Assembly: GCA_038380795.1 (NCBI GenBank)
Contig: CM076259.1
Location: 27,448,977-27,512,976, forward strand
DNA length: 64,000 nt
Direction of reading: 5' to 3'
Origin: Pyrocephalus nanus
Lineage: Eukaryota; Chordata; Aves; Passeriformes; Tyrannidae
The position numbers and the translations under genes were made by a program. The notes under the pieces were generated by a model. It saw nothing but the letters and a program-made list of their open reading frames with translations, ran no database searches and was not told the DNA's origin. Below are positions 804 through 31,121 of this stretch, piece after piece. Numbering within the stretch: position 1 is the stretch's first letter; each line of letters begins with the position of its first letter.

Positions 804-3800
804 GTTCATGCCCAGGAAAGAACAGTGAAGATCCTCCAAATGACAGCAGTAGTCATAAGACCAAAGAAGTTGCAAAGGAAAAGCAGTCTCAAACAGAGCT
901 GGTCAAACAGGAGATGCTGGTGCAATACCTGCAAGATGCTTACAACTTCTCAGTGAAAATCACAGAAGCTCTGTACCTGATCAGCAAGCTGATGTATGAA
1001 AGCTCTGTCTCAGGTATGTGAAATAACCATGGGGTGCTTTTTTCCCATTCAGCATTTCCAGATCTCTCCTCTTGCTGGAGAGATGTTGTAGTGGTGGAGC
1101 TCCAGGAGGAGGGGAAAAGCTTGGAGGAACTGTTCTTCGCTGAGCAGGTGTGACAGGCACTTCCAGGATATTGGAAAAGCAGTCACTATCTAAATGAGTG
1201 TCTGGAAGGGGCTGAATAGGGCATGGATGGGCTTTTTAGGAATCTCTTTTTTAAATATCAAAGTTGGAAATGTTTTAAAAATTATTTAAAAAATGTTTTT
1301 GAAAACATTTGAAATAAAATGGTTTTGAGGTATTTTATTGGTCACCAACCAGGTGACAAAAATGTCTTCACTAGTGGAAGCTATCCTGTCTCCTGTGGGG
1401 AGGGATGTATGTTCATCATCCCGGCTGAGGTTTTCCCAAAGTAAGCACGGCCAGTGAAAGCTGGACTTTGTTACATGCTCAGTGCCCTGATACAGCTTCA
1501 GGTGTTATGCTGGCCACAAGAGGGGAACTAAGCAGCTGGTCTCATCCATCTCACCTTTCCTCAAACTTTATTCTATAGCTAAACATGAGCTGTAGCCTGG
1601 TCCTCTTCAGTGCTGTAGTGAAAAGTGGTGATGAGTCAGCCTTTGAGTTAATTCAGCTGTTCATACTAAAATCAGAACTGCTGTAACCATTTAGACTTTT
1701 TTTGAAGTGTTTATCGTGAATTGGCATTTCCAAGGGAGCTGGAGTACAGAGGGGCACGACTCCCTCTCCCATCCTGTCCAGTACATCCACTTGCACAGAT
1801 CTGGAATAAGATGGGTCTGGTGCAACAGTGCCCTGGCTTCACGGAAACATTTCTGAGGCTTCATCTGTGTTAAGGACTTGTGATAAGTATGTGGGCTTCC
1901 CCGGCAAGCTTTGATGTCATTAGCTATTTGCACACACAAAAATTAACTCCTGAGTTCAGTGTCTTTACAGGTAATTTGAAGTTCAAGGCCAAGAGAGTGC
2001 CCCTACCTGATACTTAAACACCTGGGTTTTGGTTGTGGTGTTTTGGGGTTTTTTTGGCTGTGCAGACTTTACTAACTTTCCGTGTCCCTGTTGTCCTATG
2101 ATGCAGTGTAAGGAAGGCAAATTCAATGTCTGGACAGTGGAGATGTTTTCTCCATGTGGAGAGAGTACACTGCTGGATGAGGGGCTGATACTAAGGGATG
2201 TGTGTGCTCAGATTTAGCTTCTTGTAATTAAATATTTAATATTTGAAGATTTAATTTTTTTTTCTGTTGCAAACGTATACCTTCTGGTGTGACTGGAGAC
2301 AGGGAAAGCATGCCACCTGATAGATGTTCTTAATTCGGATTTAGAAATTAAAGCTTATACTGGTAAAAGCTCCTACTTAACCAGAGGTCAGACCATGAAC
2401 TGTTTGTTGTACAGCTTCTTTGATGGCTACCTTGGCTCTCTTGGGAATACTGGCTTACTTAACATTTTTTCTTGTTTTACGAGCAGGAGACTGGGCAGTT
2501 ATTTCAGGAGTAGTCAAGCTGGAATCAAGTGCTTCATTCCAGAGCCCATTTGTACATCAGATACCTTAGTTATTCTGGTTATAGTATTGCACTGGGACTT
2601 AAATTCAGCTGTTGTCTGCTGTGACCATGAGACTTTTTTTTTTCTCCCCAAAACTACTGTTTCCCAGAAGAGAATTTTTTTTCTTTTTCAGGCATTTTCC
2701 TAAACATATCACCTTGGATTTAGCTGTGATTTTGTTATCCTGTGCCTGTTTTCTCTGGGACATCTACATCTGGGTTCTAGTGATCCCATTCTGACTTGAG
2801 CCCTCTGCAGACATTAGCAGTGATCTTTAGATGTTCATAGAGTTTGCTGTGAGAGAGTACCCCTGTGAATTTGTTTGAATGGCCTCTCTAATGGGAATTG
2901 GGAAAGAACTGCACTAATGCAACTGTTCCCTCTGCAGTGGTGCAGGAAGCCATTGAGTTCTTTGTGACGGTCTCGCAGTTTAATGTGCCCGAGGCGCTGC
3001 TTGGAGTCCGCAGGATGCTCCCCCTCATATGGTCAAAGGAGCCTGGCATTAAGGAGGCTGTGCTGAATGCCTACAGGAAACTCTATCTGAGCCCCAGTGA
3101 GGATTCTGAGAGGTATGGGCCTTCCTAAGCAGAAGATATTTGGGTTTATTTCAGGGTTTTATTTCTTTTCTTCCCCCCCCCCCCCCCTGCCCCTTTCTGC
3201 TGTTAGGAATGGGGTATGGACAGAAAGAGAACTAAAAGGTTATATATTTGGGTATCCCAGCCTTCCTGCAGGACATACTGCTGAGCTTCTGCTCTTGGAT
3301 TGTCGTAGTGTTCATGTGTAGGAAATTCATGCAGAAAAACTCCATCTGAGAGCTTATGGAAGGAGATGCTGAAAATTACTTTAAATTAAACTGTTATCAG
3401 GCACTCACACTTGTTCTCATAAATTTCACTCTCATACAAAGTACTGCCCTAAGATACATATACCCAAATTATCTGGGAAGGGTCCCTATATGATAGGGAA
3501 CAAGGAGTGTCAATTGGGAATGTTCCTTTTGCCAGACAGGTTCTTGATTGGCAACAATTAACTAATTTTTTTGAATGGCTGTTTCAACCCTTTGAGAGTC
3601 AGCTGCTGTTATGGAGTCATCCCGTGTCCAAGAGTCTTGTATACTTCACCCTCTGTGGGCAAGTTGTCGGCCAGTGTTTGTTTCCCCATTTTGAGCTTCT
3701 TATAACTTTAGTTTGCTCATCCTATTGGAATAATAAGAGGAATGGTATACAGTGTAGTCTGAAGTTGGAGCTTTATTTCTGTTACCAGACCTCAAGTTTT

Positions 3801-9700: not shown

Positions 9701-12700
9701 GCTGTTCTTGGTGGTGCCAACCGCTAGGAAGAGAGGCAACCGGCAGAAACTGATACACAGGAAGTTCCATCTAAACATACAGAAGAACTTTACTGTGCAA
9801 GTGACTGAACATTGGTACAGATTGCCCAGAGAGGTTGTGGAGTCTCCCCTCACTGGAGATGTTCCAGAACCGTCTGGCTGCAATCCTGTTCTGTGTTCTA
9901 GGATGATCCTGCTTGAGGAGGGAGGTTGGGCCAGATGACCCGCTGTGGTCCCTTCCAACATTACTATGTGATTCTGTGGTTAGTGTTCTGTGGCATGTGG
10001 ACTGGCAAATGCTGGACTGCCCTTCACAACTTCATTGAGTTCTTGGGGGGAAAGTGGGTTATAAAATCTCCATCAGTCTGCTGTTCTCCATTCTAGTTGT
10101 GTGGCTGGTAATATGCATATACCTCACACTTGACAGAAGAGAACTTTGTGAAGAAAGAGGTTATTGTTGCCTGACATCTTTTGTACAATCTTCCTTTCTG
10201 CACAGACCACAGGAAACGAGACCACTATGGAGGAGGAGCTGGGCCTCGTGGCAGCCTCGGCTGATGACACCGAGGCCGAGCTTATCTCCAATATTTGTGA
10301 GACAGAACTTCTAGATGGTAAGTGTGGCTGCCAGCAAGGAGCACTGGCTCTGTCTGCCTGTTTGAAAGAACAGGTATGGTGGGTATCCTGAAGGAGGAAG
10401 GCTGTTTTATTCTGAAGGAAACAGTCATTTTTGGCCTGGTGTCAGTTTCCATGTAGGCTGTTTCTTTGCTCTGCCTCTCTGGAGGTGGTTGTTTGTGGTG
10501 AAAGTGAGTCAGCCAGTTACTGTAGTTTGCAGCAGTTCTGGGATAAATTGAATAATTGTTTTTAAAGCGGGATACACAAAGAATGCTCTCATACTCACTG
10601 TCTTTAACACCACTTTCTAGGGAAGCACCTGTTCTCTGCCTTTGTTCCACTGGTGCTCAAGATCTGCAGCAACCCTGGACGCTACAGCGATTCAGCACTG
10701 TCAGCTGCTGCAGCCCTAACTCTTGGCAAACTCTGCATGATCAGGTACCACTGAGCCATGCCAGAGTTCCTTTCCCAGCTTTCCTAGTACTGAGCACAAG
10801 CAAATGTTGCAACTCCTTTTCCAAAGAAAGAACAAACACAGAAGTGTCCATAAATTACTTTTTCCTTTAACTGTTTTTTCTTCTCTGCTCTCTGAGAGAT
10901 GGAATTTTGGTATCTACCCCTACTTTCCTGTACCCTGTCTTTTCAGCTCTGAGTTCTGTGACACCCACTTGCGTCTGCTGTTCACGATGATGGAGAAGTC
11001 CACTCTGCCTGGTGTGAGATCCAACCTCATTATTGCAGCAGGAGATCTGGCCATCCGCTTCCCCAACCTGGTGGAGCCATGGACATCACATCTCTATGCC
11101 AGGTAATGCTACACTCATTGTTGGGAGAGGACAGGTGATGAAAACTCTGTGGAAGGGTGACACTGGATCTCCAGAAGGCAAGAATGACCCTGGAAACCAA
11201 ATTTGAAGATGTTGCAGGAAGACAACAGACCTGGCTATGGAATAGGCTGTCAGGAGTATCCATAACTTAGAGACACTCATTCTGCTGCTTCCTGCAGTAA
11301 CTCTTTGTTTCTGTCAGGTTGCAGGACCCCTGCCCAAGGGTGAGGCAGACAGCTGCACTCGTGATGACTCAGCTCATCCTCAAAGACATGGTGAAGGTAA
11401 AGGGCCAAGCGAGCGAACTGGCAGCTCTGCTGGTAGACCCAGAGGAGGCAGTCGTGGGAGTGGCTAAGAACTTCTTCAGTGAACTCTCCACCAAGGCAAG
11501 TGGATGATCAGGGACCTTATTCACAAGAGCAGGGAAGGGCTGTTGGAGGCTGGATCAATGAATGGCATGAGTCCTGGAGAGGTGTGTTAGTGGTGTAGGT
11601 CTGTCCCTCTGTGTTGCCCAAATAAGAGTAGCTAAAAGAAACTTTGCAATACAAGTTTTTCCTGATGTTGCTGAATTTGATCTCATCCATTCACACCGGA
11701 AGGCAGGCTCTAAAACAGTGCCGTGTCCCTTTGCTTTCTTGTGTATGCCTAGAACAGGGTTTGGAACAGTTTTCTGCAGCGTACCTTTAGGCCTTACAGC
11801 AGAGTTCCCTGACTTTATGACTCAGGCACCTTCTCTGAAACCTTTCCAAGTTGTTCTTGGCTGTGTGATACTGAGTTACTTAAACTGAAGCAGTTTTAGC
11901 CCGAGTAAAACTTTTCTTACTGCAGGTAAGAGCAGTACAGGTTACCCCCTGTTCATTCAAAGTTAGTCTCACACGGGCCCTGCAGAGTTTGACATTTGCT
12001 GCCTGAGAGGCTGCAGTGACACTGGGGCTTTTCTGTCTTCGATTGCTCCATTAAAGCAGAGCCAGCCACCTGACTATGCTGACTTGCTATCTCTGCAGTG
12101 TGTATGACAAAACTATGTAAAAGCACTGGGAAAATGAATGTGGGCTGGACCTTTTCAAGCAAGATGGAAAGCAGTTCCTTAAGCTGAAATGCTGTTTCTT
12201 TTATCAGGACGCTTTTTTCATTGGTTTCTGACAAGGTTGGAAAGCAAAGAAACTGCATCCAAGTCTGCCAAAGAGCAGAGCTGGGTTGCAGTTACAGCTT
12301 GTTGGTTGGCTGGGTTTTTTCCCCCTTAGCTTCAGCCAAGTAGTCCTGGATAGGTTTGGCTGGCTGTGTACAGCTTGTTTCAAAAAGCTGGGTTTCTGTC
12401 AGTAGATTGAGGATGGGGAAAAAGGAAGTAATTTTAAGTGGGCAGCTTAACTGGCTTGACTCAAGGTATCCTTTATAATTCTGTATTTCATGTACAAACT
12501 TATGTTCTGCACAGGATAATGCCATCTATAACCTGCTTCCAGACATAATCAGCCATCTCTCCAATCCTAACTGCAGCACAGAGGAGGAATCCTTCCACAC
12601 TATTATGAGGTATTCTGAGGCTAAATAAATCTCTTAGGACCAGTACTATGTTTATGCAAAGGAGGTGCCAGATCCAGGGAAGAAAAACTACAGAAGAAAA

Positions 12701-15700: not shown

Positions 15701-17937
15701 TCTTGGCCATTTGTATACAGTGCCTGGGCACATGACCCACTCAGCTGCCTCAGGGAGTTGCATATTTCCCAAAATATTTGGATTTTTTTCCCTGAGCTGG
15801 AGTGGAAAGTGGTCCCTCTCTCCCAGGTTGCCTCCCAGGAACACTGGTGAGCTTTTCACACAACATCTGGAAATAACTATCTTTGTGTAAGTTGTGTCTA
15901 GTGTTAAGTAAAATGTCCTGATATTTCTGTACCTCAAAGATGATCAGCTTGATGAGCACTAGTGATAATGCCAAAGGAAGACTCTCGCTCCAGGTTAAAA
16001 CAGGAGCTTATCAGAGAACATTTTGCAACTACTATCACCCCCCTCCTCAGCATTTCAGGAGTTCCAAACATAGCAAGTTACCAAGTATCATTCAGACTTT
16101 AAAGATGGAAATACCTGGTTGCTTCAGCTTTGTTCTCCATCTGTTTGGGTTTGAGCAGAGCATTCTCAGAGAGCAGATGCAGGACAGACTTCAGGCCCTC
16201 TGCTTTGTATATATTAATAATAGGGGCTTTGGCCACGTTTTTTTCCCATCCCATTCCATCACAGTGAGCTACATTAATAGTTTGTGCTTTTGGGTTTTTT
16301 CTCCTTGTTTTTTTTCCTGTAACTTTTGCTGGAATTTGAATGTACTTGTTCTTTGATAAAGCAGTTGTTATTTGTTGACTTCATAACTTAATGAATATGA
16401 CCTCCTTTATGTCCCTTTCTGGCCAGGAAAGAGAGAGAGAGAGAACATCAAATACAGCTTCTGCTTGAGATCATCTCAAACATGCAAAAATGAGCAGCCA
16501 GGTTTTTTTTTATTATTCAGCTGAAATAAGGCCCTTCAAGAGGAGTCCTGACCTCACTGAGTCATCTTTTCTTCCTAGTCAGCAATAACTTCTGATACTT
16601 TTTAAACAAGTGACTGTGTTCTTCAGCAGTGGAGCCTTCATGTTTTTCTGACAGACAGTAATGCAGTGTCTTTGGAATGCAGTGGTGGTTGTGTGTGGTA
16701 TGGCACGGCACCCTGTCACTGACCTGTAACAAAACAACCCAAATCTCATGTTCTGCAAGGCAGAAGCGCCTGTAGCTCTAGGTGAGATGTGCTCACCCTC
16801 ACACATCCCTTTTTGTAAGAGCTAATGGCAGTCTTTGTCTTTCTCAGAACGGAGCGTCAATACCAGGATCTGTCCTACTGCCTTACTCTGCTTCCAATCT
16901 CAGAACGGGGCCTTCACAAGCTGCAGGACAACTTCGACTGCTTTGCAGATAAGCTCCAAGATCCAGCTGTCTACAGTTGTTTCCAAACTGTGCTGGCTCG
17001 ATTCCACAGAGCAGGTGTCAAACCTGAGGCTAAAGTAAGGACGGGGGACAAGTGTCCAGGCCAGAAAAGCGATTGCTTTTTCATATATTGATTGGAAAAC
17101 CTTGCAGCTTTCCATTTTAACAGACTACTACTCACTCCTAACAATTTATCAATGTATTTATTTAACTTGATGGCAATTCTGGTATGGATTTAATATTTCT
17201 CTCCCCTCATCTTCTTTTTTCTTCCCCCCCCTGCACTGTTTTACATCTCCATCAGGCTCTAGCTGAAGAGCTGGAGCAGAAGCTGTCTGCCTTCCGTAAC
17301 CGAGGGCTGAATTCAACAGAGACGTGCCAGGAGGGCAGTCAAATTCCAGTGTCAGTGCCAGCCAAGCAGAAACCAATAAGAAGTATGTTCCTTTTGTGAG
17401 GCTACAGCCTTCCCTGTGATCCTGCAGTACAGCAGAGACACCTAGGGATTTTTCCTTACCCTTCCAGAGAGAATGGCTGCTACCTCTCTCTTATTTTTTT
17501 TTTCTTTCCCTTTTTCTTGACAGGTTCACGCCACCAGCCCGTGAGCCCAGCCAACAAGGATGATGAAGATTTTGTCACACCCCAGTCTCGCACCCTCCGA
17601 AACCAGAAGCGCACCCAAAAGCGCCATCCACGCAAAAAAGCTGCGATCACCTTCTCCAGTGACGAGGAGAACAGCTCTGGGGACGGTAAGCCATCCTGCG
17701 TGTGCCCCTGAAAGGTGAAAGGGGAGGACTAGAGATTTGGCCCAACAGGGATGTTCCTTTGGTAATGGGCTTCAGAGCACGGGGGAGGTTGCCTGGAGAT
17801 TTCTCTGTTCAAGGCAGTGGAGTGCTGGTTATTGACACATTTTACTCTCTTTAGAGCTATTGGCAGAATTAAGAGAGGAAGAAACCCCCACCAAAACAAC
17901 TCCCATCACCAGATCTTCAGCCCGCCGGCTGCGCTGA
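804..17937 (+). CDS. NCAPD2: Condensin complex subunit 1 (CAP-D2), 3' part of gene, 18 coding exons
   Basis: This is the non-SMC HEAT-repeat subunit of condensin I, which with SMC2/SMC4, CAP-H and CAP-G compacts mitotic chromosomes. Exons read from splice sites: 804-1013, 2938-3112, 4705-4789, 4939-5072, 6072-6204, 7764-7848, 7944-8105, 8344-8558, 10206-10317, 10621-10744, 10947-11102, 11318-11495, 12515-12609, 15080-15160, 16848-17034, 17256-17382, 17524-17685, 17855-17937 (TGA). They sum to 2,504 nt and stay in frame, giving about 833 C-terminal residues; human CAP-D2 is about 1,400, so the 5' exons lie before base 1. Recognisable blocks include RRMLPLIWSKEPG, VTLIYQLAEGP, TMEEELGLV, LAIRFPNLV, LILKDMVKVKGQ and SYITKDKQTESLVE. 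The tail is basic then acidic (KRTQKRHPRKK, FSSDEENSSGD) and carries TP sites in DFVTP and EETPTKTTP, equivalent to mitotic CDK sites known in vertebrate CAP-D2. One intron has a GC donor (11496). Identity is secure; individual exon edges could be off by a few bases. Confidence 0.97.
3173..3187 (+). repeat. Poly(C) tract, 15 bases
   Basis: A run of 15 C residues just downstream of the NCAPD2 exon ending at 3112. Simple low-complexity sequence. Confidence 0.85.
6688..6716 (+). repeat. Poly(T) tract, 29 bases
   Basis: A run of 29 T residues in an NCAPD2 intron. It could be the reversed tail of a poly(A)-bearing insertion, but no element is visible next to it. Length is likely to be polymorphic and to be error-prone in assemblies. 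Confidence 0.9.
9500..9978 (+). mobile_element. CR1 LINE, truncated 3' end, inside an NCAPD2 intron
   Basis: The stretch follows the CR1 3' region in sense orientation: a motif like AAAGACATGGAGCTCCTGG, then GAGGAAAGGCTGAGAGCTGG, a segment on copying by steps (GAGGGTGTCAAGAGGATGG), CAGGAAGTTCCATCTAAACA, CCCAGAGAGGTTGTGGAGTC, and the typical end TGGTCCCTTCCAACATT followed by a short ATTCTGTG-type tail. It is 5'-truncated, as most avian CR1 copies are, and sits in the intron between the exons at 8344-8558 and 10206-10317, on the same strand as the host gene. The subfamily cannot be named without a library. Confidence 0.9.
14300..14420 (+). mobile_element. Possible old CR1-like LINE fragment in the large NCAPD2 intron
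   Basis: A short stretch (GTGCTGGTGAGACCTTGCC, GGAGTGCTGCC, GTTCTGGTCAC) resembles the reverse-transcriptase/3' part of old CR1/L3-type LINEs in sense orientation. Divergence is high and the flanks are not recognisable, so this is only tentative. The rest of this 2.47 kb intron (12,610-15,079) shows nothing I can name. Confidence 0.35.
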
Positions 17938-17973: not shown

Positions 17974-18217
17974 ATTCATCCTTTGCAGCAGTCGCCTTCT
18001 CTTGTCTGAACTACCCCATAATATGAAAGTGCTTTAAATGAGGACAAAATTGAAGTTAACACCAGGCTAGAGCAATTCCAATCCTGTCTTTTGGTATCTA
18101 CAAAGAAAGGCAGTGCTGAACATAGCTGCCACTTTCACCAATTTTGCCCTGGCTTTGCAGATGAGAGTAAGCTGTTTTTATTTTAAGAAATAAAAAAATA
18201 AAATAAATTAAAAAAAT

Positions 18218-18240
18218 CTTTGAAAGAAACTCTTTCAAAG
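18218..18240. repeat. Perfect inverted repeat downstream of NCAPD2
   Basis: Ten-base arms CTTTGAAAGA and TCTTTCAAAG separated by AAC form a perfect hairpin. It directly follows an A/T-rich stretch (18,170-18,217) with AATAAA on the plus strand and TTTATT, i.e. AATAAA on the minus strand. It lies about 280 bases past the NCAPD2 stop. Confidence 0.8.
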
Positions 18241-19350
18241 AAGAGCCAAGCTACTGCTCATTCCTTTCTCATTTTGTACATGCTTATAATATGCTATTCA
18301 GCTTCTTTCAACACAGGACCAATACGGTTTTGATGGGGTTAGGCCTTTTTATGTTTGATCCTTTTAGAAGCTCTTGCCCTGTAAAGCTCAGCAGGGCTCT
18401 GAGGGGAAGTTACCTGCATCTTTTTTCTTGTACAGATCTCATCAAAGAACAGTTGAGGGACTGGGGGGTGTGGAGAAAGGGAGAGAGAAAGGTTAGCTTA
18501 GACTAGAGTGCTTCAATAAACTTCAGTAAGTTTTTTAAAAGTTTTAAAAAACAAAAACAACCCAACACTAAAAACTTTAACTTTTAATAACTCTGATTTG
18601 ATCAAGTCACTACGTATACTGATAGCATTGGTTGTTTCACTGTGCTTTTTAGAATGTATTAGCTGCAAATCCAATTATGTTTCAAATAAGACTGGCACTT
18701 TCACACTCTTTCCTTCCAGGAATGCCACATCAGTGTTCAAGTCAGTCCTGGCACTCCTTGAACTGCCCTGTGAACATGAAGTGCCCTAAATTAAATTTTG
18801 TGTTAATCACATAAATAACCTTTAACCTTCTGTCTCAGAGGCAAGTTGGCATTTGTCCCAGAGCTATTACTACAGAATTATTTCCTCTTACCTGTCAGCT
18901 GCCTAGAAAGCAGACTAGTCACTGGGGGGGGGACAGGAAGGGTCCCCCTCCTCTCTGCAGGTTCCTGCAGATCTTCTGCAGTCTCTGTCTCTGAGGATCT
19001 ACTAATTTCCCACAGTCGCTGGGGTTACCCTTGGTTCACCCAGGAAGGAGAGCATACTGCTCAGTTCCCCTCTGGCCTGGCTGCATAACTAGCAGTAAAA
19101 GATTGCTGTAGCTTAATTTGATCCCTATTTAAAAAAAAAGAAAAGTCATTTGTAATTGCATAGCTTTGCACTGACCTGGGCCTATGGTTTTTCATGCCAA
19201 TACCTGAATGGACATGTTAAACAGGGTAACATGTTAAATGTGTGTAGAAACAAGTAGAATGGGGGGAATGACAGGGTGACAGGTGTATTTACTGGAGTAA
19301 GCCATGTGGACCAAACACCACACTTGAGTCCCATGGCACAGTGAGAATAC

Positions 19351-19517: not shown

Positions 19518-21570
19518 CTACAGGAGATAGAGGCGGCAGCAGTAAATATGACACAGTCATGCACACGGTACATGATTCCCCCACCACCCACAGGGTTTGT
19601 CACTCACACATGGGAATGAAAAAGGAAAAGGGCAGCATATATGAGTGTCTGCTCAGACTCAAGGTTTTATGAGCCTGTGCAATCAATCTTGCGTGTATGT
19701 GAGATAATATGTTGACAATACTGCAGTAGGGGAAATATGAATGGGTGGATAGAGGAAGCAAGGTGGCCATAAAACTCTTACGCATTGGCTCACCTTCAGG
19801 CCATGCTCTTCCAGTACAAGGGGTTAAACTTCTTCCTTCAGGAGAGCCGTGCAGCCACCTTTCTCAGATATAAGGAGGGTTTGGCAGTCACTCATTGAGT
19901 GACACAGTGGCTCCTTCACTGCTTTGCAGTCTGTTTCTTGCCCTGTCCTGGACACTGCACTGCCTGGACAAGTGAGAATGGAAAGTCAGTGAGTGGGAGC
20001 TCCAGTTGGTCCCTTTCTGCAACTTCTTCAGGTGGAGCATCCTCCTCTCCTCACTGTCATCTCCTGACATTGGAAAAATTAGCAGTCCCGTGTCATGGAT
20101 AAAGAAGTCCTACAGAAAGATGAGGCAAAACCCAGGAGGGGTTTGGACAGCTACACAGTGGCTACTGCATAAAGTAGATAGTTGCTGCCCTTCTGTTACT
20201 CACAAGCAGATATTTTGGTGGCTGCCACAATGACTAGGAATTGCTACTGAAGTACTAATGTCACTCCCTTGCTTCTGAGGCAGTGGGATTACTCTGTGCC
20301 AAAATCAGTGGTGTTTCCATTCTCTGAGGGACTCCTGACCATGGCTGGTCTGACCTCCTTCCTACAAATTATACCAGTGAAATAATGTGAATATCGCTCT
20401 TACTTCTAGAGCCTGCAGCAACCATTATCCCTTTCCATCACCATGGACCAAGGGCTGTTCCCTCAGAGTACTTCACTCAGTTCCTAGTCCTCCCACTCTC
20501 CAGTTGCCCTGCTCTTTTTCTATATAAGCAACTGTTTGTAAAACACTGATTGTGATTCAGCAGGAGACCACTTTTCTGGTGGTCTTGCAAGCTCTTGAAT
20601 TAGTGCCCTAGCATCAGAGGGGGAAGGGTGTTTATAGAGGAAACTTGTTAGCATCAGAGAGGAAAGAAAGACAATAACCTATTTGAGTCTGAGAAAACTG
20701 GGGCAATTGGGGACTCGTCTGCCAAAGCCTTTTCACTTCACAGTCACTGCCAGGACATGTCAGAGCAACTTTTCAGTGCTACTGCAGTCCCAGCAAGGAT
20801 CTGGGACGCAGAGCAGCTGTAACATCACAGCACCTGCGTAATTGAGCACCAATTTATCCAGGCTTTGCTGGATTTGCAAGAATTTTCAAGAATCTGCAAG
20901 AAAATTTGCAAATTTTCTGCAGTCTCTGAAGTTTCTTGTTTGGTAGGGGAAAGCGATGGTTCCTTCCCCCTTGCCAGCCCCAGCTTTTGCTGGATCTGAG
21001 GAGGGGAACTTGTCACTTGAGATCTCAGAGCCTGTCCACCCCTGCAGGGCTCAGTCTTTGTGCAAGTGGACTGGAATTCTGGAGCAGTTGCAAACACATT
21101 TCTGTCATTCTTGCAGTAGGGGGGCCACCACATTCAGAGGATGCCAGGTCATGCTGCTGCTACATTTTGTAACAAAAACAAAGTGTTGTTGCTTTGGTAC
21201 TTACCTTTCACTCAGGAAAGACGTGACTCCTGCAACCGGTGCGTTCAACCCGAGATGCACCTGCCTGCGGCTCTCTTGCCGGCAGCACGAGTGCTCTGGC
21301 AGGCTGACTCAGCTCTTTCTGGATGGTCAGATGTGACTGGGAAGTACAGAACAGCATCCTCTGGGACATCTTGCATGTGGAATGAACACGTGCTCGCTTC
21401 CTGTCCTCCTCCCTTTCTTTTCCACCCCTCTGAATCTTTCACATCACGATACTCCATACCCTACTGCACCCAGCACATGGCTGTGCACACATCCCAAACT
21501 CCGTTTGTGCCCAGGCACCCCGTCTGAATGCCCACGTGGACAGCACGTCCCATGACTCTCCGGCAGTCAC

Positions 21571-23183: not shown

Positions 23184-23189
23184 TATAAA
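23184..23189 (+). promoter_or_regulatory. TATA box of the natriuretic peptide gene
   Basis: TATAAA inside AGCTATAAAGG lies 86 bases before the likely start codon at 23270. Transcription would begin near 23,212, giving a leader of about 55-60 bases. Natriuretic peptide genes in other vertebrates have TATA promoters and short leaders, which supports the model. Confidence 0.65.
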
Positions 23190-23223
23190 GGCAGAGAGGG
23201 GCGAGGGGCCGCATTCGACACGG

Positions 23224-23265
23224 ATGCTGCATGTCCTGCCTCACCTCCCACGAGCCCTGGGATAA
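23224..23265 (+). other. Upstream ORF in the natriuretic peptide leader
   Basis: An ATG at 23224 opens a 13-codon frame that stops with TAA at 23263-23265, five bases before the proposed main start at 23270 and in another frame. If the leader begins near 23,212, ribosomes would meet this ATG first, which could lower translation of the hormone precursor. This is inference from position only. Confidence 0.45.
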
Positions 23266-23269
23266 GAAG

Positions 23270-24994
23270 ATGATGCTGGGCATGATGCAGTCATGGCCTT
23301 GCTCATTTTTCCTCATCTTGGTTCTGCTCTCTGCCAGCGTTCAGACTGTGTCCTTACCAGAACAAAGGCTACAGGTAAGGAGGGAGTGGGAGAGAGCTGA
23401 GGGAGGTTTCAGAAGTGGAGAGACAATTTGGGGAAGTTGTGTTTGAATCTCGAATGAGTGGTGGTCCCAAATTTCAACTACTGGAGGCTGCTGTCTATTC
23501 TCACTGTTCCCTCCCCTTCAGTCCAGCAGCCTCAGCTCTAGGGTGACTTTATAACCCAGCTCCTAAAGAGCACCAGCATTTTAAGACAGGAAATGCACAA
23601 AAGCTTTTTAGTGCTCTGCAGAGGGTTTTAATGGTAAAGAACCCACCCCTGTCTAACCCTGCTCTCTGTCAACAACGACCAGAAATCACAGTTGGATCTC
23701 TTATCATGTTCAGTGCCTGGTTCTGACGTTTCAGAGGGAAGAAATATCCTGTTTGGCCAGGATTTTTGCTTCTAAGTTCAGTACTGCCCCTCAGTAGACA
23801 CTCTTTAGGGCCAGGATGCCAGCTAAAGGCTTCTTCACTTGAGTAAATCTTTTATCCTCAGTAGTTGCAGCAATAATATTTTTGGCTCTCAAATCTACCC
23901 AGCTCCCTCTTACACAAACCCTAACCTGAGCCCCAACACCTTGCCTTCACATGACGCTGGGAAAGCTCCAGGGAAGTAGTCAGGACATGAACTAAAATCA
24001 CAAGACTGATCCTGGTATGACTCAACACTTTCATTCCTCACTGAAGATGTGTGTGTCCGCTTCAGTTAACTTGCTATGGCAAAGAGCTGCACAAAGGCAT
24101 CTTCAGCCTTAGCTCAGCATCCATGTGAGAGACAGATGTGGAATGGTTACCACAGGCTGCTTCCCAGGGCAGCCATGCCGTGCCTCTAGTGTACCCAATG
24201 CAACCATCAACCCTTGTCTGCAGGCTTCCAGCAGTGCTGGGGGTGTACAATCAGCAGATATGATCTAGAGGATTCATGGCAGGTATTTGAGGCAGGTCCA
24301 TCCTTCCTACCAGCCTTCTGGAAAAAATGAAATGCCACACAGCAGCCTGAACACACAGAGGAGCTCAGCATCCAAAAGAGGAGCAAGGACTGAAGCCTGT
24401 TACCTTCCAAATCCAGGAATGGGAGGCTGGTGTATGGCTTGACAAGAGCAGGGCAATCTGCACGCAGGCAGAGGCTCACAGCAGGTGCCTGCCTGCTGTT
24501 TTGGACAGCAAAGTCATTTCAGACAGCAGGAGCTGGTGATCTAGCCCTTCCCTCTGCGTGGATGCAATGTCACAGGCACAGTGCTGTGCGCAAACATCAC
24601 TTTAGGTCCTGTCTAAGCCCTAAGGAGGGTGTGGGCAGTGGAGTACAAGGGGGTACAAAGCTTATAGCCAGGAGCAAAGGCATATCTGCTTTTACCCCCC
24701 TCTTGCTTCTGTTTATCCCAGATTCTCCTTTCACGGTTGCTGCCCCTGGAGCCCGAGTCCACGCTGGCTGAAGAGGACACAAAGGAGGGGTCCAGCTTTG
24801 GTCCTCAGCTACTCTCCTCCACCCTCCCCTTCCTCCCATCTGGGGCTAGAGCTGCCCGTCCTTCCCTCTGGCGCAAGACCCTCGCCAGTCGCAAGTGGGC
24901 ATTGCCTGGAGATTGGGCCTGGAAGGCCATGCCCAGGGGCTGCTTTGGGCTGAAACTGGACCGCATTGGGACCTTCAGTGGTTTGGGGTGTTAG
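23270..24994 (+). CDS. C-type natriuretic peptide (CNP-like) precursor, two exons
   Basis: A secreted peptide hormone precursor; CNP acts through the guanylyl cyclase receptor NPR-B (NPR2) to raise cGMP. Exon 1 (coding 23270-23374) ends LPEQRLQ|GTAAGG; exon 2 (24722-24994) starts after TATCCCAG and ends at TAG. The joined frame has 125 codons before the stop, close to human CNP (126). Residues 1-25 or so form a signal peptide (MMLGMMQSWPCSFFLILVLL...). The C-terminus is GCFGLKLDRIGTFSGLGC: a 17-residue Cys-to-Cys ring with the CFGLKLDRIG core, and the stop directly after the second Cys, the mark of CNP rather than ANP/BNP. Basic sites WRK, SRK and MPR precede the ring. ATG 23270 has A at -3; an in-frame ATG at 23231 would add 13 residues but has a weak context. 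It is not the NPPC locus of mammals (different synteny), so it is a paralogue, possibly the CNP4 or CNP3 type. Confidence 0.9.
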
Positions 24995-26185
24995 ATTTGG
25001 AGGGTCGCTGAGGTGAGAGGGCCAGCAGTGAGTGGGCTCGAACAAACGGGCAGGGACGAAGTTAAGGGGAGAGTTGATCACACAGAGAGTGAGCGGATGG
25101 GGGCAGCGGGGGCAGGCTATGAGGCCACCACCTGCCGGCGGCCAGGGCCGGGGACCCCCCGCGCTGCCGGGGCTGTGCTGGGGCCCGGCCGGGGCGGGAG
25201 CAGGCGGGCGGGACGCCGCTGGGCGGCTCACCAGCCCCGCTTCTCCACAGCCAGGGTCACCCAGGCTCGGGGACGAGCACGGCGTGGGAACCAGCGCGAC
25301 TCGGGAACCGGCGCGGCGCACCGATGGACGAAGGCCCGAAGCTCCCGCCCCGAAGGAGCGCGGCGGCGGCTGCGGGAAAGCGGCGCGGCGGTACCGGGAG
25401 GAGCTGCCCATCTCCGCAGCTGGCCCCCTCTGCCGCTGGACCCCCGGCTACGCCGGCAGCCCTCTCCCCTCGTCCCCGCGCCTGAGGACTCGCTGATTAA
25501 ACACTCTGTACTAATTGCCGCGTCCGAGCTCGGCGGTGGCCGCCCCCCGGCCGTGGGGCGGGCGGGAAGCAGCGGCAGAGCGGGCCCCACGCGCGGGGCC
25601 GCACCGGGCTGTGCCGCCGCCATTCCGCGTGGGGCGGGCGGCACGCGCGGCTGCGGCGCGGTGCTGCCGAGGAAGGGGGGCGGCACACGGGTGAGGGATC
25701 GACCGGACACCGGAGTACAAGGGCCGCGTTGGCTCATTTCGGCCGCACTCTGCCCCCACCAGAGCAAACACAGGGGCCTCCTGTTTGCGGTGAAGCTTCT
25801 CCCGGGGAGCCTCCCTCGGTGGACTGCGGCTGGGGCACCACGGACCCCGGCACGCGTTCGCAGCCCCGCTGCTGTACCACGCGAGCCATCATCATCCTCT
25901 GGCCTTTAAGAAAAGGTTGTAACCTCAGCTGGGTGTCTAAACTTAGCCGCCAGCACCTCGGCAGCACCGGGAATAGCAGTGGTATAAGGAGAGTTGGGTT
26001 ACGTTTGAGCTGTGTGACCCCTCTCTGCCCCCCACCCGAGTATCTGCATGGTTCTCCCAGCCCGCTTCCCCCTGTTCATCATCAAAGACCTGCTCAGCTG
26101 AGCAGCCAGAGGGACGTTCCTCCTCCCACCACCTCCCCCCCCCCTCCCCCCCCCCCAGCTCCCGCCAGTCCAGATTTCTATCCAT
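24995..26185. promoter_or_regulatory. CpG-rich island with no assigned gene
   Basis: From about 25,130 to 25,900 the DNA is very GC- and CpG-rich and holds long open frames on both strands (for example 25,013-25,909 plus and 24,809-25,411 minus). I take these as a by-product of base composition because they match nothing and overlap each other. A GCCGCCATT motif near 25,617, like a YY1 site, and GC boxes fit promoter function. It starts right after the natriuretic peptide stop codon and is separate from the GAPDH island. A C-rich tract fills about 26,138-26,157. The target transcript is unknown. Confidence 0.5.

Positions 26186-28115: not shown

Positions 28116-31121
<3,006 letters not shown>

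Follow-up and report, generated by a model that had tools for sequence, protein, structure and literature searches.

A probable avian C-type natriuretic peptide 1 gene upstream of GAPDH in Pyrocephalus nanus

In the part of PMC2873334 available to us, avian C-type natriuretic peptide 1 (CNP1) has its own entries (chicken A9CDT5 and zebra finch Entrez 100226912), distinct from CNP3, NPPA and RNP, and is called an avian-specific duplicate. Trajanovska 2007 is referenced as the chicken CNP1 paper in the accessible portion of PMC8626375. According to an excerpt of PMC4992253, NPPC1-3 were lost in tetrapods, and an excerpt of PMC5940360 assigns reptile and frog CNP3 to the NPPA/NPPB cluster. In the available text of PMC10454581, fish CNP4 is grouped with mammalian CNP, and the discussion names zebrafish CNP1, too, as a likely orthologue of the mammalian peptide; CNP1 and CNP3 are unmentioned in the portion of PMC12000514 at hand.

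Here we describe a locus in a 64-kb window (the whole stretch of DNA analyzed, 64,000 nucleotides of Pyrocephalus nanus) that is very probably a known, annotated avian gene, the bird version of CNP1. We put at about 0.88 the probability that this gene, which would encode a secreted prohormone with a signal peptide, a prosegment and a C-terminal CNP, is the one called avian CNP1 in print. The identity with published CNP1 rests on the family and on the elimination of CNP3, BNP and RNP, the chicken entry A9CDT5 being known by its listing.

The locus has the gene structure, the frame, the ring and the conservation of a CNP gene. Splicing of positions 23270-23374 to 24722-24994 on the forward strand gives an uninterrupted 125-residue frame for a C-type natriuretic peptide precursor, and the exon junction matches that of avian proteins, in which RLQ is followed by M/V-LLS. 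The features of the locus are as follows.

11301..11504, + strand: ORF with a condensin complex subunit 1 (NCAPD2) segment, same-strand neighbor
23184..23189, + strand: TATAAA box, by sequence match
23224..23265, + strand: small ORF of 13 codons and a stop, 5′ of the main start codon
23270..23374, + strand: coding part of exon 1, signal peptide and first prosegment residues; 35 residues, ending in LQ
23375..24721, + strand: phase-0 intron, CAG/GTAAGG ... TTATCCCAG/A
24722..24994, + strand: coding part of exon 2 including the stop codon, prosegment and mature peptide
24890..24895, + strand: Arg92-Lys93, a conserved pair of basic residues and likely site of putative cleavage by a convertase
24896..24991, + strand: predicted mature 32-residue peptide, residues 94-125, from the position of the basic pair
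24941..24991, + strand: 17-residue natriuretic ring, Cys109-Cys125, from Pfam, PDB and profile matches
25496..25501, + strand: ATTAAA, some 500 bases past the stop codon, a possible polyadenylation signal by sequence match only
about 28116..31121, + strand: GAPDH coding exons, same-strand neighbor, ends counted from motif positions

The preliminary description had proposed both exons with their splice sites, the TATAAA box and a 125-residue CNP precursor with its ring at the stop codon, and this is borne out by the frame and by the Pfam and PDB 1jdp matches given below; the precursor may have 124 residues, since the second Met, at 23273, is where avian relatives start. Use of the in-frame ATG at 23231 would instead yield 138 residues. 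Transcription is expected to start about 25 to 30 bases 3′ of the TATAAA box. The hydrophobic core of the N terminus has a mean hydropathy of 2.83 (residues 14-24), with S-A-S at residues 21-23, and a signal peptide of about residues 1-23, with cleavage at its end, is predicted. The last ring cysteine, Cys125 (24989-24991), stands directly before the TAG stop codon (24992-24994), leaving no C-terminal tail. BNP-type peptides have such a tail.

Two further observations concern the flanks of the coding sequence. The 13-codon ORF 5′ of the CNP1 start could tune translation. At 25000-25750, right after the CNP1 stop codon and before GAPDH, the DNA is GC rich and CpG rich (observed/expected, up to 1.1).

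Membership in the natriuretic peptide family is supported by two matches that are independent of our own profiles. Residues 106-125 match the Pfam family PF00212 (ANP) with an E value of 7.5e-12 and a score of 45.7 bits (cut-off, 27), and residues 105-125 match the CNP chain of PDB 1jdp (E 8.2e-6), whose ring differs from that of the window protein at few positions. We also searched the 2092 stop-to-stop ORFs of at least 20 residues from the six frames of the window with a profile of alignment A1 (22 rows). Only the two exon-bearing ORFs passed the inclusion threshold (E 8.3e-55 and 5.3e-13; next, 0.11). These values are flattering, since the window protein and its near relatives are themselves in the profile; they say more about where the gene lies and about its being the only one than about independent homology. 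In this search of the 2092 ORFs, no second natriuretic gene came above threshold, and a search of the window for structured RNAs brought no Rfam family to its gathering score. Chance resemblance was also considered and is ruled out by the strength of the Pfam ANP match and by the finding that exon 1 and exon 2 each match the family profile on their own.

With regard to the neighboring genes, Pfam Gp_dh_C scored above its cut-off in two ORFs of the GAPDH region and below it in a third. Upstream, the ORF at 11301-11504 matches condensin complex subunit 1 chains (four distinct sequences; best E, 4.2e-11), which fits NCAPD2, an identification made up of this one ORF plus the reading given in the preliminary description. 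The position claimed there, upstream of GAPDH and downstream of the NCAPD2 segment, agrees with the same-strand GAPDH exons and with this ORF. Ten ORFs were run against Pfam: three were GAPDH, and two GC-rich ones and five upstream ones (15922-16353, 17400-17708, 18207-18503, 20947-21333 and 21120-21524) had no match. Two more upstream ORFs (16819-17088 and 2892-3125) had no solved-structure match.

A homologue search of protein databases clustered at 90% returned 101 proteins at E values up to 1, among 121 candidates. These comprised 91 named bird records, 1 crocodile, 7 records without an organism name, 1 fish (Danionella, named C-type natriuretic peptide 1) and 1 rodent (E 0.56). Identity to the window protein in alignment A1 is 66 to 94% in the 20 archosaur rows and 38% in the fish, and the ring and the preceding Arg-Gly are nearly invariant in alignments A1 and A2. 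It had been thought that annotation could miss the gene, but 87 of the 91 named bird records are already labeled ANFC, ANFC2 or C-type natriuretic peptide, the other four being two named "hypothetical protein," one "Mf-NP-like" and one "GAPDH." Since avian CNP1 is also already in print, as the available part of PMC2873334 shows, the gene is no discovery. Among the 27 bird names starting with "C-type natriuretic peptide" (a PREDICTED prefix allowed), 21 are 2-like, 3 are 1-like, 1 is 3-like and 2 are unnumbered; public names for this one avian gene are inconsistent (CNP 1-, 2- and 3-like, "Mf-NP-like" and even GAPDH).

Some of these records have unusual ends. Bird records P0077, P0078, P0083, P0084 and P0091 match the exon 2 part alone (65 to 73% of the query; window positions 24722-24994). 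The N termini of P0077, P0078 and P0083 resemble the translated end of the intron, not a signal peptide, and look like annotation artifacts or transcripts beginning in the intron. P0094 (Aix galericulata) is a CNP1 exon 2 protein named GAPDH with an unrelated tail in place of the last cysteine, as if two neighboring genes had been merged in annotation.

We give next to no credence to the idea that the window carries a decayed or silent copy, a pseudogene. The frame has no stop codon or frameshift, the mature region is almost invariant, and records with transcript-isoform names are present in several birds.

The Crocodylus porosus record, P0097, has 67% identity over 86% of the query, and the gene is therefore older than birds. 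This contradicts both the avian-specific duplication and the loss of NPPC1-3 in tetrapods, as these are worded in the available parts of PMC2873334 and PMC4992253, respectively. The window gene is an old paralogue common to birds and crocodiles, not a new gene. In view of the crocodile copy, the idea in the preliminary description that birds have retained an old paralogue is reasonable; the CNP4 or CNP3 type that it suggested is unlikely, as discussed below. This greater age and the inconsistent public names are by-products of an analysis that otherwise adds little that is new beyond showing that this bird has an intact CNP1-type gene upstream of GAPDH.

The question of which CNP this is was addressed with the prosegment, that is, with the signal and the ring removed. 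The archosaur prosegment was aligned with group profiles by hhalign, locally and globally; the fish rows were assigned to groups from their record names and by visual inspection instead of synteny, and the comparison sequences held no identified CNP3 or fish CNP4. With samples of unequal size, and with 8 of the 14 CNP1 rows coming solely from a search whose query held fish CNP1, the fish CNP1 profile (14 sequences) gave a local probability of 89 (E 2.4e-6, 58 columns) and a global one of 64, the fish CNP2-like profile (3 sequences) gave 27 (21 columns) and 19, the sturgeon and paddlefish profile (2 sequences) gave 42 and 18, and the single rodent NPPC record, P0101, gave 0.5 and 0.02. Prosegment hmmsearch scores overlap, at 4.1 to 13.5 bits for CNP1-type and 8.9 to 12.6 bits for CNP2-like sequences.

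A full-length profile of 12 archosaur sequences and no fish matched 265 proteins at E values up to 1e-4, the best 120 of which comprise 99 archosaur or unnamed records of the homologue search, 20 ray-finned fish and 1 unnamed exon-1 fragment. Among the non-archosaurs in the matches listed, paddlefish P0122 came first (60 bits), CNP2-like P0123 second (58 bits) and CNP2-named P0127 sixth (57 bits); CNP1-type fish in the same matches scored 52 to 58 bits and were not separated from CNP2-like fish. A phylogeny of 27 precursors, a check that had been suggested at the outset, grouped the window protein with Grallaria, Neopipo, Agelaius and Edolisoma (support, 87/80) and yielded no reliable deep order: 13 of its 24 inner branches were open, and the analysis flagged a meeting of long branches.

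The prosegment profiles are better for CNP1 and the full-length scores do not separate the two types, so CNP1 is favored and CNP2 is a lesser possibility. We consider it unlikely that this same gene is an orthologue of fish CNP2, which would make the published avian name CNP1 a misnomer. Such an origin would fit the standing of P0123 and P0127 beside the CNP1-type fish in the full-length archosaur-only search (matches listed), the 2-like label of 21 of the 27 bird names, the short prosegment stretch that aligns to P0123 (21 columns) and the 12.6 bits of P0125. However, the match to the fish CNP1 profile is longer and stronger (58 columns and probability 89 versus 21 columns and 27, in unequal samples), and the three CNP2-like rows are set apart (99/98) in the tree, one in which long branches meet. 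Avian CNP1 thus remains our preferred reading.

The CNP4/NPPC or CNP3 type originally proposed appears very unlikely. The ring is near that of 1jdp, as expected of any CNP, but no prosegment similarity was seen to P0101, the sole mammalian NPPC-like record tried, which at 194 residues is unusually long (hhalign probability, 0.5; hmmsearch, −0.1 bits). Avian CNP3 is a separate gene in the available part of PMC2873334. Moreover, CNP3 would be expected in an NPPA/NPPB-type cluster, going by the excerpt of PMC5940360, whereas the window has no second natriuretic ORF above threshold and the neighbors are a condensin-1 segment and GAPDH.

For avian CNP1, a route from gene to peptide can be proposed. 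K93 is unchanged in 22 of 22 rows of alignment A1, and R92 and K93 are both present in 12 of 12 rows of alignment A2. After transcription of the CNP gene, a proprotein convertase would most likely cut after Arg92-Lys93, and the two cysteines would close the 17-residue ring; as 15 residues lie between Lys93 and ring cysteine Cys109, a mature peptide of 32 residues is predicted. By analogy with the family, the peptide would act locally via the guanylyl cyclase receptor GC-B (NPR2), raising cGMP. Its tryptophan-rich extension reads W/R-A-x-x-G-D-W-A-W-K in most of the birds read. We suggest, tentatively and with considerable doubt, that the archosaur gene, lacking the RxxR-type site of fish CNP1, may release a 32-residue CNP with this conserved extension, in which case birds would have a CNP that is processed in its own way and may also have a receptor preference of its own.

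Compared with known systems, the window gene shares with mammalian NPPC (CNP4 type) the ring and, presumably, the receptor, and differs in its prosegment, which is dissimilar in the single record tried (P0101). With the fish CNP2-like precursors (P0123 and P0127) it shares the ring, and these score as high as CNP1-type fish against the full-length profile among the matches listed, but their prosegment profile match is weaker than that of fish CNP1. The likeness to ray-finned fish CNP1 (P0116, P0103 and P0102) extends from the C-terminal CNP ring to the end of the prosegment, where a tryptophan and a leucine/alanine-rich stretch precede K-R/K-W. In the teleost CNP1 records read, a 22-residue peptide follows immediately on an RxxR-type site, whereas the bird gene has no such site next to the ring; its basic pair lies 15 residues further off (Lys93 against ring cysteine Cys109), which predicts the 32 residues. 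The bird ring has GTFS or GAFS where that of these teleost records has GSMS or GSLS. Avian CNP1, as listed in the available part of PMC2873334 (A9CDT5; Entrez 100226912), is likewise a bird CNP precursor gene and is most likely the same gene as the one in the window.
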